41,865 nucleotides of DNA from Gemmatimonadota bacterium (GTDB lineage Bacteria > Gemmatimonadota > Gemmatimonadetes > Gemmatimonadales > GWC2-71-9), in contig QHVC01000007.1 in the NCBI GenBank assembly GCA_003222205.1, positions 1 to 41,865 on the forward strand, written 5' to 3'. The notes under the pieces were generated by a model. That model was not told the origin of the DNA, searched no databases, and saw nothing but the letters and a program-made list of their open reading frames with translations. Each line of letters opens with the position of its first letter. Positions within the stretch are counted from its first letter, which is position 1. Shown one piece after another: positions 29,239 through 36,216 of this stretch. The position numbers and the translations under genes were made by a program.

Positions 29239-29378
29239 GCCGCGCCTCTGCAGTTCGCGAGTCGCCCCAACGTACCGTCCAACATGGCTGCCGCAACCCC
29301 GAACGTGCCGCGGGAGCGCCTGCCCGAGATGACCGTGGTCATCCGGCAAACGCTCCCGCGTGTCGTCGTCGAGGTGTT

Positions 29379-29645
29379 CTAGCGGCGCCTGCGGCGCGAC
29401 GCCTTCTTCCGACCCTTGGCGCGCTTCGCCTTTTTCTTGGCTTTCGGGCGCGCGGCCTTCCTCTTCTTGGCCTTCTTCTTCGCCTTCTTGCGGGCTGCGG
29501 GCTTCGGCTTCGGGGCGGCCATCGGCTCGCCCATCGGCCTCATCGGGGCCGGTGTCGGCGGCGCGGGCGGCATCGGCGGGAACATGGGCTCCGACATCCC
29601 CGGACCGGACCAGCCGCTTTCCGTCACCTCCACATGCTCAAGCAT
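29379..29645 (-). CDS. Small histone H1-like basic protein
   Basis: An 88-aa protein. The first 45 residues are Pro/Met-rich (MFPPMPPAPPTPAPMRPMG). The last 40 are almost only Lys, Ala and Arg (AARKKAKKKAKKRKA, KGRKKASRRRRR), like the tails of bacterial H1-like nucleoid proteins (AlgP/HctB style). Such tails bind DNA non-specifically. GGAGG lies 8 bases before the ATG, which supports a real gene despite low complexity. It is divergent from the glycosidase. Confidence 0.7.
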   Translation of the reverse strand: MLEHVEVTESGWSGPGMSEPMFPPMPPAPPTPAPMRPMGEPMAAPKPKPAARKKAKKKAKKRKAARPKAKKKAKRAKGRKKASRRRRR

Positions 29646-29685
29646 CGGATCTCTCCTCCGCTGGTAGTGTTCGGGCGTGGCCTAT

Positions 29686-29713
29686 AGCTTATCCCGCTCA
29701 CTTCCCTCCGCAA
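29686..29713 (-). promoter_or_regulatory. Candidate promoter of the basic-protein gene
   Basis: TTGCGG (29713-29708), a 16-base spacer and TAAGCT (29691-29686) on the minus strand. The A/T-rich CTATAGCTTAT in an otherwise GC-rich gap supports a promoter between the two divergent genes. Confidence 0.3.
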
Positions 29714-32317
29714 GTGACGATACGCACCCGTTTTTGGGCCTTGCTGCTGGCGCCGACGGCGCTCGCGGCGCAGGGCGCGCCGCGCCCCATCTCGTTGCCG
29801 TGGCGACAGTTCGCCGAGGACCTGACGGGCCCGGCGCGGCCCGCCGGGTACACAAGCGTGGTGGGACGCCGCAGCGCCCTCATCGGTACGGAAACCGGGA
29901 CATTCGAGGCGTGGGCGTGGCCGCTCAAGCTGCTGCACGGCTTCGAGCTCAGGTTCAAAACGCCACTGTACGACCAACCCGTCCCCGGACGCGACATCGC
30001 GCGGCGGGTCGAGGTCACGCCTGCCGGCGTGACCATCGTGTACGTGCACCCTGCGTTCACCGTACGGGAGCGGTTGTTCGCCCCGGAGGACGAGCCAGCC
30101 GTCGTCGCCGTGCTCGAAGTGGAGGCGGTACGGCCCCTCGAGATCATCGCTCAGTTCCGGCCCGACCTCCAGTACGCCTGGCCCGCGGGGATGGGGGGGC
30201 AATACGTCGCCTGGGACGACGCCGAGAAGGCGTTCGTGCTGTCGGAGAGCCGCCGCCAAGTGAACGCCTTCGTTGGGTCGCCGTCCGCCACGTGGGCCAC
30301 GAACAACCCGTCCCACATGCTCGCCGACGCCCCCAGCGAGCTGCACATCGCCGTCGGCGACCAGGGTGCCGTGGCGATGCCGCGCCCCGGCGAGCCCGCC
30401 GGGCGCCTCACGGTGGTGCGGGCGGCGGGCATCCCGATCGTGATCGTTGGGGCAGCGGCTCCGCGCGACACGGTTCGGGCGATCTACCGCCGCGTCCTCC
30501 GGGACGCCGAGCGGCTCTACGCCGCGCGGGCGACTCACGCGCAGGCGGTGTTGGACTCCACGCTGGTGCTGCACTCGCCGGACGCGGAGCTCGATCTGGC
30601 CGTGCGTTGGGCCGAGCTGAACCTCGACGCGACACTCGCCTGCAACCCCGACCTCGGGTGTGGCCTGGTCGCGGGGTTCGGGCCCTCGGGCCCGACGAGC
30701 ACCCGGCCGGGGTTCGGGTGGTACTTCGGCGGGGATGCCGCGATCAACTCGTTCGCCATGAGCTCGACGGGGTTGTGGAGCGTGGCGCGGGACGGGCTGG
30801 CGTTCTTCGCGACCTATCAGGGCAAGAACGCGCCGAACCTCGGCAAGATCCCGCACGAGATCTCACAGGGGGCCGCGCGCATCCGCTGGTTCGAGGAGTA
30901 CCCCTACGCCTTCTATCACGGCGATACGACGCCCTTCTGGATCCTCGCGCTCGCCGAGTACTGGCAGGCCTCCGGCGACACGGCGACGATCCGCCGCCTG
31001 TGGCCGAACCTGCGCCGCGCCTACGACTGGGCGAAGGCGACGGACGCCGACGGCGACGGCTTGATGGACAATGCGCGGGCCGGAGCGGGGGCGATCGAGG
31101 TCGGGGACCTTCAGCAGGGGCTCAAGTCCGACGTGTACATGGCGGCGGTGTGGGTGAAGGCCCTCGAAGTGTTTCCCCGGATGGCGCTGGCGATGCGCGA
31201 ACCCCAGGTGGCCGACGAGGCGCGTCGCCTGCACGAGCGCGCGCTCGCCACGCTACGCGACAAGCTGTGGCTTTCCGCCGAGCGTCGCTACGCGTTCGCG
31301 CTCCTCGATGGCGACAAGCTGTCGGGCGAGCTGACGGTGTGGCCGGCGACCGGCCTGGCGTTCGGCCTGTTCGACGAGCGCCGCGGTCAGGCGACGGCGG
31401 CGGCGCTCGCGGGCGCGGGAATCACGACCGACTGGGGTGCGCGCACCCTCGCGCCGTCGTCGCCACTGTTCGATCCGCTGCACTACAACAACGGAACCGT
31501 GTGGCCGTTCGCCACCGGGTTCGACGCGCTGGGGCTGTTCCGCTACCACAACGCGGCGATGGGGTGGGCGGCGACGTCCGCGGTCGCGCGCACCGCGTTT
31601 CTGTGGGGTCTGGGGGACAACCCCGAGGTGCTCTCGGGCAGCGTGTACGAGCCGCTCGAGACCGCCGTACCACAACAGTTCTTCGCGACCTCGATGCTGC
31701 TGACGCCGCTGGTGCGCGGGCTCCTGGGCTGGGAGGCTGATGTGCCGGCAGACCGCGTGCGGCTCGCGCCGCACCTGCCGCCCACGTGGGACTCGGTAAC
31801 GGTCGAGCGGTTGCCCGCCGGCTCGGGGCGCTACACGGCGCGCCTCGTGCGCACGCGGGACACGTTCCGGGCGGCGATCGAGCGAACGAGCGGTCGCGGG
31901 GTGGACACCGTGGAGTTCTCCCCCTCGCTCCCGCTCGGGGTGACGCTTCGCGCCGTCACCGTCAACGGGCAACCGGCGGCCTGTGGCGTGCGAACTCCCG
32001 GACCGGACGTCCACGTGGACTGCACCGTCCCGCTCGGCGAACGCACGGAGATCGTGGTGCGCCACACCGCGGGATGGGAGGTCCTCCTCGAGGCGCCGCG
32101 TCCGCGGCGGGGCGAGCGCTCGCGGGCGCTCAAACTCCGCGGCCAGCGGCTCGCCGGCGACACGCTCGTGCTGGACGTGGAGGGCGTGGCGGGGACGACT
32201 TACGTGGTGCCAGTGCGGATGCCAACGGGTATGAAGGGAGTGACTATCGAGTTTCCACCGGGAGGCGATTCGGTCGACGGCTATGTGGCGCTCTCGGTGC
32301 GCGTTCTCCCACGCTGA
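29714..32317 (+). CDS. Secreted six-hairpin glycosidase (amylo-alpha-1,6-glucosidase-like)
   Basis: An 867-aa protein with a signal peptide (TIRTRFWALLLAPTALAAQ) from GTG 29714. The N-terminal half is a beta-sandwich (LPWRQFAEDLTG..., SALIGTETGTFEAWAWPLKLLHGFELRF). From about residue 330 an alpha/alpha barrel begins, with GWYFGGDAAINSFAM, FYHGDTTPFWILALAEYWQ, ADGDGLMDN and NGTVWPFATGFDALGLF, the pattern of glycogen-debranching/GH15/GH63-like enzymes. It probably releases glucose from alpha-glucans outside the cytoplasm. The last three codons and the TGA lie in the first copy of the multi-hairpin element. The catalytic acids were not assigned. Confidence 0.85.
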   Translation: MTIRTRFWALLLAPTALAAQGAPRPISLPWRQFAEDLTGPARPAGYTSVVGRRSALIGTETGTFEAWAWPLKLLHGFELRFKTPLYDQPVPGRDIARRVEVTPAGVTIVYVHPAFTVRERLFAPEDEPAVVAVLEVEAVRPLEIIAQFRPDLQYAWPAGMGGQYVAWDDAEKAFVLSESRRQVNAFVGSPSATWATNNPSHMLADAPSELHIAVGDQGAVAMPRPGEPAGRLTVVRAAGIPIVIVGAAAPRDTVRAIYRRVLRDAERLYAARATHAQAVLDSTLVLHSPDAELDLAVRWAELNLDATLACNPDLGCGLVAGFGPSGPTSTRPGFGWYFGGDAAINSFAMSSTGLWSVARDGLAFFATYQGKNAPNLGKIPHEISQGAARIRWFEEYPYAFYHGDTTPFWILALAEYWQASGDTATIRRLWPNLRRAYDWAKATDADGDGLMDNARAGAGAIEVGDLQQGLKSDVYMAAVWVKALEVFPRMALAMREPQVADEARRLHERALATLRDKLWLSAERRYAFALLDGDKLSGELTVWPATGLAFGLFDERRGQATAAALAGAGITTDWGARTLAPSSPLFDPLHYNNGTVWPFATGFDALGLFRYHNAAMGWAATSAVARTAFLWGLGDNPEVLSGSVYEPLETAVPQQFFATSMLLTPLVRGLLGWEADVPADRVRLAPHLPPTWDSVTVERLPAGSGRYTARLVRTRDTFRAAIERTSGRGVDTVEFSPSLPLGVTLRAVTVNGQPAACGVRTPGPDVHVDCTVPLGERTEIVVRHTAGWEVLLEAPRPRRGERSRALKLRGQRLAGDTLVLDVEGVAGTTYVVPVRMPTGMKGVTIEFPPGGDSVDGYVALSVRVLPR

Positions 32318-32410
32318 AGCGTGGGCTCGGCACGGCACCACGCTGAAGCGAACGAACATGAGCTCGCTTTAGCGTTCTGTCTGACGAGCCCGTCCTTGAA
32401 GGATGGGAAC
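32307..32410. repeat. Multi-hairpin element, copy 1
   Basis: About 104 bp with three hairpins: CCCACGC/GCGTGGG at the left end (loop TGAA), a central pair built on AAGCGA and TCGCTT, and GTCC/GGAT with flanking pairs at the right end. It is an inverted copy of the element at 35834-35934. The left hairpin contains the glycosidase stop codon. Confidence 0.8.
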
Positions 32411-32448
32411 ACACGACGCCCATCACGGTGTGAAGGTGACAACTTCGC

Positions 32449-32477
32449 TTGACAACGTCACTTAGCGGGGCTTACGT
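32449..32477 (+). promoter_or_regulatory. Promoter of the Ig-like/TolB gene
   Basis: TTGACA (32449-32454), a 17-base spacer and TTACGT (32472-32477), a near-consensus -35 with a plausible -10. The expected start point is within a few bases of the ATG at 32488, so the transcript may be leaderless or nearly so. Confidence 0.6.
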
Positions 32478-32487
32478 TCGCCCTGCC

Positions 32488-34755
32488 ATGAGCGCGCGAT
32501 TCCTGCGCGCGGCCCCCGCGGCCCTGCTGGTGGTCCTGCCGGGCGCCGCGCTGGCCCAGAACGTCGCCGAAGTCCAGGTCGCCCCCCCCTCCGTCACCAT
32601 CAAGGTGGGCGAACGCCTCGGCCTCCTGGCCACGGCGTTCGATCGCGTCGGCAACGTCATTCCCACCGTCCGTCCTATCTGGACCTCCAACAACGTGAAC
32701 GTGGCCAAGGTCGACAACAACGGCACGGTAACGGGGGTCGCCTCGGGGGCGGCGATCGTCGAGGCCCGGGTGGGCACGCGGCGCGGCCAGGCCGTCGTGC
32801 AGGTGACGGGGTCGGGCGGCGCCCCGCCGCCGGTAACCCCTCCGGTATCCCCACCGACGGACGCGGGGACGGATGTTTTCTCCGGCCAGCCCGCCGGCTC
32901 AGGCCCGGCGGCGGCCCTCAAGATCGACCCGGCCGTCATTTACCTGTTGCCGTCGGAGAATACCCACGCCTCGCCGCGCGCCCTGCGGGACGACGGCTCG
33001 CCCGCCGCGCCGGTGCGCGTGGTCTGGAAGTCCTTGCGCGAGGACATCGCGAGCGTGGACCAGAACGGCAACATCGTCGCGCTCGCCTCGGGGCAGGGCA
33101 CGATCCAGATGTCGAGCGGGACGCTGACCGCCACCGCGCCGGTCGTGGTGCAGGCGGCGGAGGTCGCGATCGCGGAACGGGGACCGCTGATCCTCGCGCC
33201 CGGGGAGCAGGACACGCTGCACGTCGTCGTGCCGACGCAGAACGGCCGCCTCGTGAGCCCCCTGGCGCTGTCCTGGCAGACGAGCAACCCGGCGGTTTTT
33301 CAGGTCAACCTGGTCGGCGCGGTGCGGGCCGTGGGCCCGGGCGTCGCGACGCTCACCGTCGGAGGCCTGCTCCAGACCAAGACCCTGGAGATCCGGGTGC
33401 ACCGCGCGGTGGAGGCGTTCGCCGTGCTGCCGCGGGCGAGCGCCGAAGTCGCGGTGCCGGTCACGGCGACGGCCCGGTTCCAGGCGACCCCGCTCGCGGG
33501 CGACAACAGTCCCGTGCCAGAGGCGCGGGTGACGTGGAGCCTCAGCGACACGTCGGTGGCGGGGTTCGATCCGGCCACGGGGACGCTCACCGCCCGCAAG
33601 CTCGGCCGCACGCAGCTCGTGGCGCGCGGGCCGGGGCAGGGGCTGCAAGTCTCATGGACCGTCAACGTGATCGCGGGCTCCTTGAAGCTCGCGGCGACGC
33701 GGCTGGCGCTGGCCCCGGGCGAGCGCTATACGCTGCGCGCCAGCTTCACCGACGATTCGGGCGCGGTGCTGGGCCCCGCCTCGGGCCTGACTTGGGGCTC
33801 GGACAACACGCAGATCGCCTCGGTGGCCGAGGACGGCACCATCACCGGGCAGGGCTACGGCCACGCGCGCATCACCGGCACCGCGCCGGGCGGCAAGACC
33901 GCCGCGGCCACGGTGTACGTGCTGGGAGAGATCGTGGTGGCGAGCTCGCGGGGCGGGAAGTTCCGCCTCTACTCGATCGAGCGATCCAACCTGTCGCAGT
34001 TGCGGCCCGTCTCGGCCGACACCGGCCAACAGATCGATCCGGCGTTCTCGCCGGACGGCTCGCGCATCGCCTTCGTCTCCAACCGCGACGGCAACGCCGA
34101 GATCTACGCGATGGACGCGGACGGCACCAACGTCACGCGGCTCACCAGCGACCCGCAGCTGGACGGCCACCCCGTCTTCGCGCCGGACGGCCAGGCGATC
34201 TTGTTCCAGTCGCAGCGCGCCGGCGGGAAGCTGCAGGTCTTCTCGATGAACGCCGACGGGACGGGAGTGAAGCAGCTCACCCAGGATTCGGTCAGCTTGG
34301 CGCCGGCCATTTCGCCCGATGGCCGCACGATCGCCTACGTCTCCCTGCGCAACAAGAATTACGACATCTGGCTCATGAACCGCGACGGCTCGAACCAGCG
34401 GCAGTTTACGCGCAGCCCGCAGTGGCGGGAGAGCGAGCCGCGGTTCCTCAAGGACGGCACCCTGGCCTACCTCGTCGAGCGCCAGGAAGGCGGCCGTACC
34501 GTCCAGCAGGTGATGAAGGCGGACCTGCCCACCGGCCAGGTCACCGCGCTCTCGGGGACGGACCTGGCCCTGTTCTCGTTCGCGGTCGCGCCGGCGGGGG
34601 ACCTGCTCGCGCTGGTCGTCAACGCCGAACCGGAGAACCGCCGCAACCCCTCGTATCGCGTGTACGTGCAACCGGTCGGGTCGGGTGCCGCGGTGCCGAT
34701 CCCCACGCTTGGCCCCGAGCAGATGATCACACCGACGTTCCTGCCGCTGCCGTAG
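32488..34755 (+). CDS. Secreted protein with bacterial Ig-like (BIG2) repeats and a TolB-type beta-propeller
   Basis: A 755-aa protein. Signal peptide MSARFLRAAPAALLVVLPGAALAQ. Then several BIG2-like repeats (about residues 25-110, 145-230, 230-320, 320-400, 400-485) with phrases such as IWTSNNVNVAKVDNNGTVTGVASG and LTWGSDNTQIASVAEDGTITGQG; a Pro-rich linker (APPPVTPPVSPP) separates the first. From about residue 490 a propeller of PD40 blades follows (IDPAFSPDGSRIAFVSNRDGNAEIYAMDADGTNVTRLT). Ig-like repeats suggest surface adhesion or scaffolding, and TolB-like propellers bind proteins. No enzyme motif was seen. The gene has its own promoter. Confidence 0.88.
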   Translation: MSARFLRAAPAALLVVLPGAALAQNVAEVQVAPPSVTIKVGERLGLLATAFDRVGNVIPTVRPIWTSNNVNVAKVDNNGTVTGVASGAAIVEARVGTRRGQAVVQVTGSGGAPPPVTPPVSPPTDAGTDVFSGQPAGSGPAAALKIDPAVIYLLPSENTHASPRALRDDGSPAAPVRVVWKSLREDIASVDQNGNIVALASGQGTIQMSSGTLTATAPVVVQAAEVAIAERGPLILAPGEQDTLHVVVPTQNGRLVSPLALSWQTSNPAVFQVNLVGAVRAVGPGVATLTVGGLLQTKTLEIRVHRAVEAFAVLPRASAEVAVPVTATARFQATPLAGDNSPVPEARVTWSLSDTSVAGFDPATGTLTARKLGRTQLVARGPGQGLQVSWTVNVIAGSLKLAATRLALAPGERYTLRASFTDDSGAVLGPASGLTWGSDNTQIASVAEDGTITGQGYGHARITGTAPGGKTAAATVYVLGEIVVASSRGGKFRLYSIERSNLSQLRPVSADTGQQIDPAFSPDGSRIAFVSNRDGNAEIYAMDADGTNVTRLTSDPQLDGHPVFAPDGQAILFQSQRAGGKLQVFSMNADGTGVKQLTQDSVSLAPAISPDGRTIAYVSLRNKNYDIWLMNRDGSNQRQFTRSPQWRESEPRFLKDGTLAYLVERQEGGRTVQQVMKADLPTGQVTALSGTDLALFSFAVAPAGDLLALVVNAEPENRRNPSYRVYVQPVGSGAAVPIPTLGPEQMITPTFLPLP

Positions 34756-34765
34756 GCCGGGCGCG

Positions 34766-35806
34766 ATGCGCGCCTGCGTCCTGACCGCCACGGGCGGTCT
34801 CGCCCATCTCGCCGTCACCGAAGTCCCCGACCCCGGGCCACCGGGGCCTGGACAGGTGCGCGTCGCCGTCCAGGCCGCGGCCCTGAACCACCTCGACCTG
34901 TTCGTCGCGCAGGGCCTTCCCGGCGTCGAGTACGGGTTCCCGCACATCATGGGAGCGGACGGCGCGGGGCTGGTGGACGCGGTCGGCGCCGGCGTCACGC
35001 GGGCGGTGCCCGGGGAGCGCGTGCTGATCAACCCGGGGGTCGCCGACTACAGCTGTGCGGCCTGCCGCGCGGGTGAGCATCCCCTGTGTCCCAACTTCCG
35101 GCTGCTCGGCGAGCATTTGCCGGGTACGCTGGCGGAGTTCGTCGTGGTGCCGGAGCAGAACGTGGAGCGGCTGCCACCGCTCGATCCCGCGCTCACGTGG
35201 GCGGAGGCCGCCGCATTCTCGCTGGTGACGCTCACCGCGTGGCGGATGGTGGTGACCCGCGCGCGGGTGCAGGCGGGCGAGACGGTGTTGGTGTGGGGGA
35301 TCGGCGGCGGGGTGTCGCTGGCGGCCATGCGCATCGCGAAACTCGTGGGGGCCAAGACCATCGTGACCAGCTCCAGTGACGCCAAATTGCACGCGGCCCG
35401 CGCGTTGGGTGCCGATGTGACGGTGAACCATCGCACCCAGAACGTCGCCCAGGAGGTGCGCGCGCTCACCGGCAAGCGCGGGGTGGAGGTGGTCGTCGAG
35501 AACGTCGGCGAGGCGACGTGGGACACTTCCCTGCGCGTGCTGGGGCGCGGCGGGCGGCTGGTGACGTGTGGGGCCACGACGGGGCCCCAGGTGGCGATCG
35601 ATCTGCGCCGCGTGTTCTGGTACCACTGGACGATCATGGGCTCGACGCTGGGGACCCTCGCCGAGTACGCGGAGATCGTGCGGCGGTTGGGGCGGGGCGA
35701 GCTGCGGCCGGTCGTGGACCGGGTGTATCCGCTGGCCGAGGCGCGCGCGGCGCTCGAGCGGCTGGCGGAAGGAGGGCAATTTGGGAAGATCGCGATTGAG
35801 ATCTAA
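34766..35806 (+). CDS. Zinc-containing MDR dehydrogenase / quinone oxidoreductase-like
   Basis: A 346-aa medium-chain dehydrogenase. The structural-zinc loop is present (Cys in SCAACRAGEHPLC; a fourth ligand was not clearly placed). The usual catalytic-zinc Cys is replaced by Asn in AALNHLDLF, as in many quinone-oxidoreductase-like members. VLVWGIGGGVSLAAMRIAKLVGAKTIV is the NAD(P)-binding fold, with SSSDAKLHAARALGAD after it. It starts 10 bases after the previous stop codon. The substrate is unknown; it is possibly an NADPH-dependent enone reductase. Confidence 0.88.
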   Translation: MRACVLTATGGLAHLAVTEVPDPGPPGPGQVRVAVQAAALNHLDLFVAQGLPGVEYGFPHIMGADGAGLVDAVGAGVTRAVPGERVLINPGVADYSCAACRAGEHPLCPNFRLLGEHLPGTLAEFVVVPEQNVERLPPLDPALTWAEAAAFSLVTLTAWRMVVTRARVQAGETVLVWGIGGGVSLAAMRIAKLVGAKTIVTSSSDAKLHAARALGADVTVNHRTQNVAQEVRALTGKRGVEVVVENVGEATWDTSLRVLGRGGRLVTCGATTGPQVAIDLRRVFWYHWTIMGSTLGTLAEYAEIVRRLGRGELRPVVDRVYPLAEARAALERLAEGGQFGKIAIEI

Positions 35807-35833
35807 CTGCGATGGCGGGCCGCTGTCGTTGTG

Positions 35834-35934
35834 TTCCCATCCTGAAGGATGGGCTCGGCGAGCACAACGCTGAAGCGAACCAAGGGCCGTTCGCTTTAGG
35901 CCGTGTCTGCCGAGCTCACGCTTCGGCGTGGGAT
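35834..35934. repeat. Multi-hairpin element, copy 2 (inverted relative to copy 1)
   Basis: About 101 bp: hairpin CCCATCC-TGAA-GGATGGG (35836-35853), a CTCGG/CCGAG closing pair, a central AAGCGAAC/GTTCGCTT stem, and hairpin CACGC-TTCG-GCGTG ending GGGA. It starts 28 bases after the dehydrogenase stop. No transposase is nearby. Confidence 0.85.
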
Positions 35935-36151
35935 ACCAGGGCCGGGCGCCGTTCGAACCGCGTGATTCGATTTCGCTCCGCTCGTGGTCCGGTGCAGTCG
36001 CCCGAGCCCCAGGTCACCGCAACCACACGGTAGCCGCTCTCCGTCAACGAATCGTCAACGTTCACACCCCACTCCCCACACGCCACATCCCACGTCTGTA
36101 AGTCCCGCTCCGACCCTCGTTTAGGGGCCCGGTTACCGTTGCTTTTCATGT
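35935..36151. other. Long non-coding stretch upstream of gyrA
   Basis: The dehydrogenase-gyrA gap is about 410 bases; this part lies between the hairpin element and the palindrome. I see no gene, tRNA fold or clear terminator in it. A GTTCGAACC at 35950-35958 resembles a tRNA T-loop, but the flanking arms do not pair. It may hold the gyrA promoter, which I could not place. Confidence 0.5.
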
Positions 36152-36180
36152 CCTAAGTGTTTACTTTTCCTACACTTAGG
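36152..36180. promoter_or_regulatory. Palindrome upstream of gyrA (operator or attenuator candidate)
   Basis: A perfect 9-bp inverted repeat, CCTAAGTGT and ACACTTAGG, separated by the 11-base A/T-rich spacer TTACTTTTCCT. It begins 65 bases before the gyrA ATG. The sequence contrasts with the GC-rich surroundings. It could be a repressor site or a weak hairpin; the regulator is unknown. Confidence 0.5.
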
Positions 36181-36189
36181 GCGTTCCCG

Positions 36190-36212
36190 TCCGACTGACC
36201 GATTGACCGACA
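36190..36212. repeat. Short 8-bp repeat in the gyrA leader
   Basis: CCGACTGA, CCGATTGA, CCGACA in 8-bp steps just before the gyrA ATG. It is related in style to the minus-block repeats. Confidence 0.5.
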
Positions 36213-36216
36213 GGCT

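Follow-up and report, generated by a model that had tools for sequence, protein, structure and literature searches.

Two multi-hairpin elements of about 100 bp, here called A and B, stand in opposite orientation on a contig of a Gemmatimonadota bacterium (QHVC01000007.1 of assembly GCA_003222205.1; the whole stretch of 41,865 nucleotides that was analysed is called the window), and the question raised by this locus is what kind of element they are. An initial annotation, made from the letters alone, had placed the inverted pair at 32307-32410 and 35834-35934 and had read it either as a small mobile element, non-autonomous and with IS200/IS605-like palindromic ends, or as a structured transcriptional element. 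Our analysis makes it very probable that A and B are non-autonomous mobile elements of a Y1 transposase that resembles both IS200 transposases and the REP-associated tyrosine transposases (RAYT), and that they are similar to REPINs (doublets of repetitive extragenic palindromes, REPs, forming hairpins) or to bacterial interspersed mosaic elements (BIMEs). The first of the two earlier readings thus fits best, the copies being dispersed, their hairpins covarying and a probably cognate Y1 gene being present in relatives, and the second is weaker, although A does stand at the 3' end of a gene.

Both elements have the same layout (Table 1), which consists of a first end hairpin (H1), the arm CTCGGC, a core, a GCCGAG-like arm and a last end hairpin (H4), and the end hairpins, CTCGG/CCGAG arms and central AAGCGA/TCGCTT stem described for the pair are each present in both. 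The minus strand of B matches A at 79% over nearly its full length (E 3.5e-16). A match in direct orientation (76%, E 2.5e-8) exists because the element is quasi-palindromic, and the inverted match is the better one because A begins with a CG-type end and finishes with a TC-type one, the order being opposite in B. Folding z-scores of the elements range from -2.5 to -3.9 as single-stranded DNA and from -4.4 to -6.1 as RNA. The earlier remark that both stand at or just after a stop codon holds for B, which starts 29 nt 3' of the ADH stop, whereas A in fact contains the stop codon of a glycosidase-like open reading frame (ORF) within the loop of its first hairpin. The pair had also been described as bracketing two genes; the positions are right, but the bracketing is incidental, since the remaining copies are single and scattered.

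A and B belong to a dispersed repeat family. The pattern CCCANNCTGAAGNNTGGG, with at most one mismatch, finds 18 end hairpins in the 2.97-Mb genome of the window and none with a reversed-pattern control, and a BLAST search with A gives matches at E < 0.001 on 13 contigs of this genome. Several copies there are shortened or halved (for example on contigs C13, C17, C104 and C133), and the set therefore looks decayed. The strict end-hairpin pattern is present in 12 of 81 genomes, that of the window included, while a longer pattern, applied to a wider draw of 395 genomes of the phylum, occurred in 21, every one in the taxonomic family of the window, with a single match in total for the reversed control. 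Together, this genome and its relatives contain 36 distinct inverted REP-like doublets of 60-118 nt; variation in the core gives elements of about 63 to 118 nt, and the ends are kept. The number of end hairpins per genome is low (a few to about 30), and the logo of 104 units has TT outside and CTCGGC inside. A further class (L110, L117, L122 and L087) is shorter, at about 75 nt; in it a single central palindrome replaces the two inner hairpins and GG-type ends are combined with CC-type ends.

Sequence differences among the copies mostly keep the pairing, as had been noted for A and B. In this comparison 92 end hairpins were anchored on the loop and right arm alone, leaving the left arm free, and counts in the anchored columns were set against 10,000 shuffles. 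Watson-Crick pairing is seen in 176 of the 184 cells at the two variable NN/NN positions (shuffle mean 75, maximum 108), with seven fully paired NN types (GG/CC, CG/CG, TC/GA, CC/GG, CT/AG, GC/GC and TG/CA), and the inner CTRAAG hairpins also covary (157 of 188 paired, shuffle maximum 120); the copies are related and non-independent, so that the shuffle values are not exact probabilities, yet the changes are seen repeatedly, in many combinations and many genomes. The earlier reading was to be given up if only two copies existed or compensatory changes were lacking; what we find is a dispersed family with covarying hairpins. Both ends are fully paired in 36 elements, none of which repeats one NN at its two ends, where 7.6 matches would be expected from the pool (P ~1e-4, with non-independent copies); each end thus persists as a separate hairpin, and a perfect palindrome of the whole element is not seen. 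Many REP families are likewise reported to favour heterodimers, without an obvious explanation, protection from hairpin-cleaving enzymes having been suggested (PMC3733652), and the strict unlikeness of the two ends is a further case of this unexplained excess.

A transposase with similar ends, for which the initial annotation had advised a search, is found inside or beside such elements in relatives. End hairpins about 500-580 bp apart enclose there a gene for a Y1 (HUH) transposase (PF01797, 70.5 bits against a cut-off of 23), in which the HxH motif reads THVHV and the C-terminal tyrosine motif REYLRNQ, and which, among proteins of solved structure, is closest to the single-strand transposases of ISDra2 and ISHp608. 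Among the compared genomes (G numbers), two half-elements enclose the gene in G026 and G038; in G030, G024, G237, G280, G219 and at a second locus of G038 its neighbours on either side are whole or worn elements. The embedded units contain the Y1 gene alone and no TnpB, and their ends are mutually inverted; of the IS200/IS605-like ends proposed earlier, the Y1 link thus stands and a TnpB-type IS605 end does not. No transposase gene was recognised between hairpins 500-1300 bp apart in G033 (C3), G014 (C12) and G024 (C68). Where records with the linked transposase are named, they are Gemmatimonadetes metagenome-assembled genomes. In a first set of genomes of the family, repeats are present in 5 of 5 genomes with a clear orthologue (at least 56% identity) versus 6 of 44 others, and in a second, separate set in 7 of 7 with an orthologue (at least 50%) versus 5 of 34 others, which gives 12 of 12 versus 11 of 78 for both sets (one-sided Fisher tests calculated by hand, ignoring relatedness, ~2e-4 for the first set and ~4e-5 for the second).

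The place of B, between ADH and gyrA, is occupied by the transposase gene in seven relatives belonging to several genera (G038, G030, G014, G237, G392, G228 and G238), always antisense to gyrA. It is intact in five of them, has one internal stop in G030 and has lost its 5' half in G238, while the element alone is present in the window and in G040, a worn element in G024, and neither in G026 and G018. Because one site and one orientation are shared by seven genomes and the pairwise identities of RAYT and ADH correlate (r = 0.69 over 15 non-independent pairs), these observations suggest that the gene has been inherited vertically at this site and is decaying in some lineages; repeated insertion of the gene there is still conceivable. 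The stop in G030 (L128/L158, AG29) is a single in-frame TAG in an otherwise open frame and might reflect decay or an assembly error. A separate inverted repeat with a T-rich middle, CTAAGTG...CACTTAG (CTAAGTGTTTACTTTTCCTACACTTAG), lies upstream of gyrA at 36153-36179 of the window; similar repeats occupy the same place in G014, G018, G024, G026, G030, G038, G040 and others, and it is likely a conserved promoter or operator.

Empty sites in relatives had been named as a further check. G018 keeps the genes that neighbour A and lacks the element (L213), and its upstream gene runs to its own TGA; in the window, a TGA context of the G018 type (GTGACAA) survives 3' of A.

Table 1. Elements A and B and their parts, with positions in the window.
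Feature	Position	Strand	Length	Remark
Element A, whole	32308..32407	.	100 bp	Inverted match to B; empty site in relative G018
A end hairpin H1, CCCACGC-TGAA-GCGTGGG	32308..32325	+		Loop TGA 32315-32317 is the stop of ORF 29360-32317
A conserved inner arm CTCGGC	32326..32331	+		Conserved in 104 units (end-hairpin positions +18 to +23)
A central stem ACGCTGAAGCGA / TCGCTTTAGCGT	32340..32375	.		From sequence and folding
A end hairpin H4, CCCGTCC-TTGAA-GGATGGG	32389..32407	-
Element B, whole	35836..35932	.	97 bp	ADH-gyrA intergenic gap; Y1 transposase gene there in seven relatives
B end hairpin H1, CCCATCC-TGAA-GGATGGG	35836..35853	+
B inner arm CTCGGC	35854..35859	+		Complementary to GCCGAG 35909-35914
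B central stem CTGAAGCGAAC / GTTCGCTTTAG	35870..35899	.
B end hairpin H4, slightly degenerate, CTCACGC-TTCG-GCGTGGG	35915..35932	-

The window itself had been described as free of transposases, which agrees with our search: PF01797 matches in its genome are confined to contigs C72, C215 and C206, and no transposase remnant was found in 35807-36216. These three Y1 genes were considered as mobilisers and rejected. Other repeats, for example AACCCCGGGCGCAAGCCCGGGGTT, flank the genes on C215 and C206, and a related, distinct hairpin (CCGTGGGCTGAAGCCCCGG followed by CTCGGC) the one on C72, so that all three probably serve other families. The hairpin CCGTGGGCTGAAGCCCCGG with CTCGGC represents a second family in this genome (C82:6388-6455, C34:2513, C135:3794 and C72 ~1500-2040; L051/L141), one element of which adjoins its own Y1 transposase gene on C72. 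The repeats of the AACCCCGGGCGCAAGCCCGGGGTT type are a third kind, flanking the Y1 genes on C215 (L052) and C206 (L053), of which the C206 gene is apparently broken.

We propose that the element consists of two REP-like hairpins in inverted order, joined by the CTCGGC...GCCGAG arms and a structured core, and that each end would form a hairpin by itself in single-stranded DNA, such as the lagging strand. A Y1/HUH tyrosine transposase (PF01797), intermediate between TnpA of IS200 and RAYT, might recognise these end hairpins and cut beside them, and the unit of about 100 nt could then be copied or joined elsewhere. The element resembles the transposase unit minus its gene, because in relatives the gene lies between half-elements or whole ones. 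The genome of the window has apparently lost the gene, leaving B at the gyrA site and decaying copies elsewhere, which would probably be immobile at present.

Several observations weigh against a REPIN-like element of such a transposase. An orthologous transposase was not found in the window's own genome, where the best Y1 relative is about 40% identical, which means that mobility here would be past or due to another enzyme; eleven genomes have repeats and no orthologue, for some of which draft incompleteness may account. The upstream protein segment is 61% identical between G018 and the window, which makes this pair of filled and empty sites too distant for the exact insertion ends and the target to be read. 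Neither a GTAG nor a CGTC tag stands beside the hairpin in the logo of 104 units. The transposase falls below the NCBIfam RAYT model NF047646 (29.1 bits, cut-off 80) and passes the IS200/IS605 model NF033573 (62.6 bits, cut-off 55). No transposition or excision was observed.

In a rival reading, A and B are miniature inverted-repeat or palindrome-associated transposable elements (MITEs or PATEs) of an active, ordinary IS200/IS605; the transposase unit would itself move, and internal deletions in it would have produced the elements. The score with the IS200/IS605 model, the best match to TnpA of ISDra2 and ISHp608, the exact position of the gene between two half-elements and its presence away from gyrA in six genomes (G024, G026, G219, G280, G374 and G038) are consistent with this. 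However, clearly related genes number only one or two per genome and are diverged (61-62% within G038), multi-copy near-identical units bearing the gene were absent from the genomes searched, which speaks against a recent expansion, and seven genomes share the site and orientation beside gyrA. IS608-type elements, moreover, have both ends on the same strand, unlike the mutually inverted ends seen here. We therefore consider such a derivative unlikely.

With similar reserve, one might place the system between IS200 insertion sequences and REPIN-RAYT. If this tentative idea is true, a transposase of the IS200 class would be low-copy and fixed beside gyrA, yet sometimes located between the halves of the element that it mobilises, and the gyrA site across genera would represent stages from an intact gene through a stop-bearing and a truncated one to an orphan element. 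One possibility proposed earlier is that an IS200-like element gave rise to REPINs through its palindromic ends, the transposase being captured afterwards (PMC3116915). A nested, gyrA-fixed and decaying gene together with orphan elements in one bacterial family opens this idea to comparison, and the same family allows the fate of REPINs after loss of the transposase to be studied.

It is also possible, with a distinctly lower probability, that the hairpins are kept, whatever their origin, for a role of RNA or DNA at gene ends, such as termination, protection of mRNA 3' ends or binding of gyrase or nucleoid proteins. A gives its upstream gene both a stop codon and a strong 3'-terminal hairpin, and B follows the ADH stop, and REPs in general are located mainly downstream of coding regions and many are plausibly transcribed (PMC3733652). 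However, no T-run was seen after the hairpins of A and B, and a conserved local role agrees poorly with the patchy distribution, the strong tie to the transposase and the empty site in G018; such a role and a mobile origin are not mutually exclusive. A described structured RNA (riboswitch, ribozyme or small RNA) in two copies is highly improbable despite the stable RNA folds, because an Rfam search of the region left the elements unmatched even at E 10 and because the elements are quasi-palindromic, vary in the core while keeping the ends and are linked to a transposase.

Dispersed inverted doublets of about 100 nt, palindromic REPs and, in relatives, a Y1 gene flanked by the same REPs are what is known of REPINs, apart from the tag; the Y1/HUH motifs, low copy number and vertical inheritance recall RAYTs, apart from the model score; and the model score recalls IS200/IS605, apart from autonomous multiplication into near-identical copies. 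We therefore file the family under the broad REPIN/TIR-type (terminal inverted repeat) class tied to tyrosine transposases, and not under a described GTAG or CGTC REP family. A limited literature search gave no previous account of REPIN-like elements in Gemmatimonadota, the kind itself being known.

Among known systems, IS200/IS605 and its PATE or MITE derivatives share with this family the Y1 HUH transposase, hairpin ends and gene-less elements, and differ in that the present embedded units lack TnpB, the ends are inverted and the gene is low-copy and syntenic. The BIMEs of E. coli, in which Y REPs are combined with Z1 or Z2, likewise have two different REP types per unit, as the ends here never have the same NN; here, in contrast, GTAG and a conserved bulge are absent and the hairpins are perfect palindromes. 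The REPIN/RAYT systems of Pseudomonas and E. coli (PMC3116915, PMC8049555) have dispersed inverted doublets of REP hairpins of about 100 nt, a low-copy Y1 gene that holds its place between genomes and repeats that outlast the gene; in E. coli, REPINs are commoner in genomes with a RAYT gene, yet persist without it (PMC8049555). The present family differs from them in its low copy number, lack of GTAG, extra CTGAAG hairpins in the core and IS200-scoring transposase. Gemmatimonadota are unmentioned in the description of TIRtrons and TIRYT genes, with their GGGGWSAS motif (PMC3733652). The likeness to these lies in tyrosine transposase genes bordered by inverted repeats that are not GTAG REPs and that in some cases make up dispersed families of moderate abundance, as in Koribacter versatilis, and tyrosine transposase genes with untagged repeats have also been described (PMC3733652).

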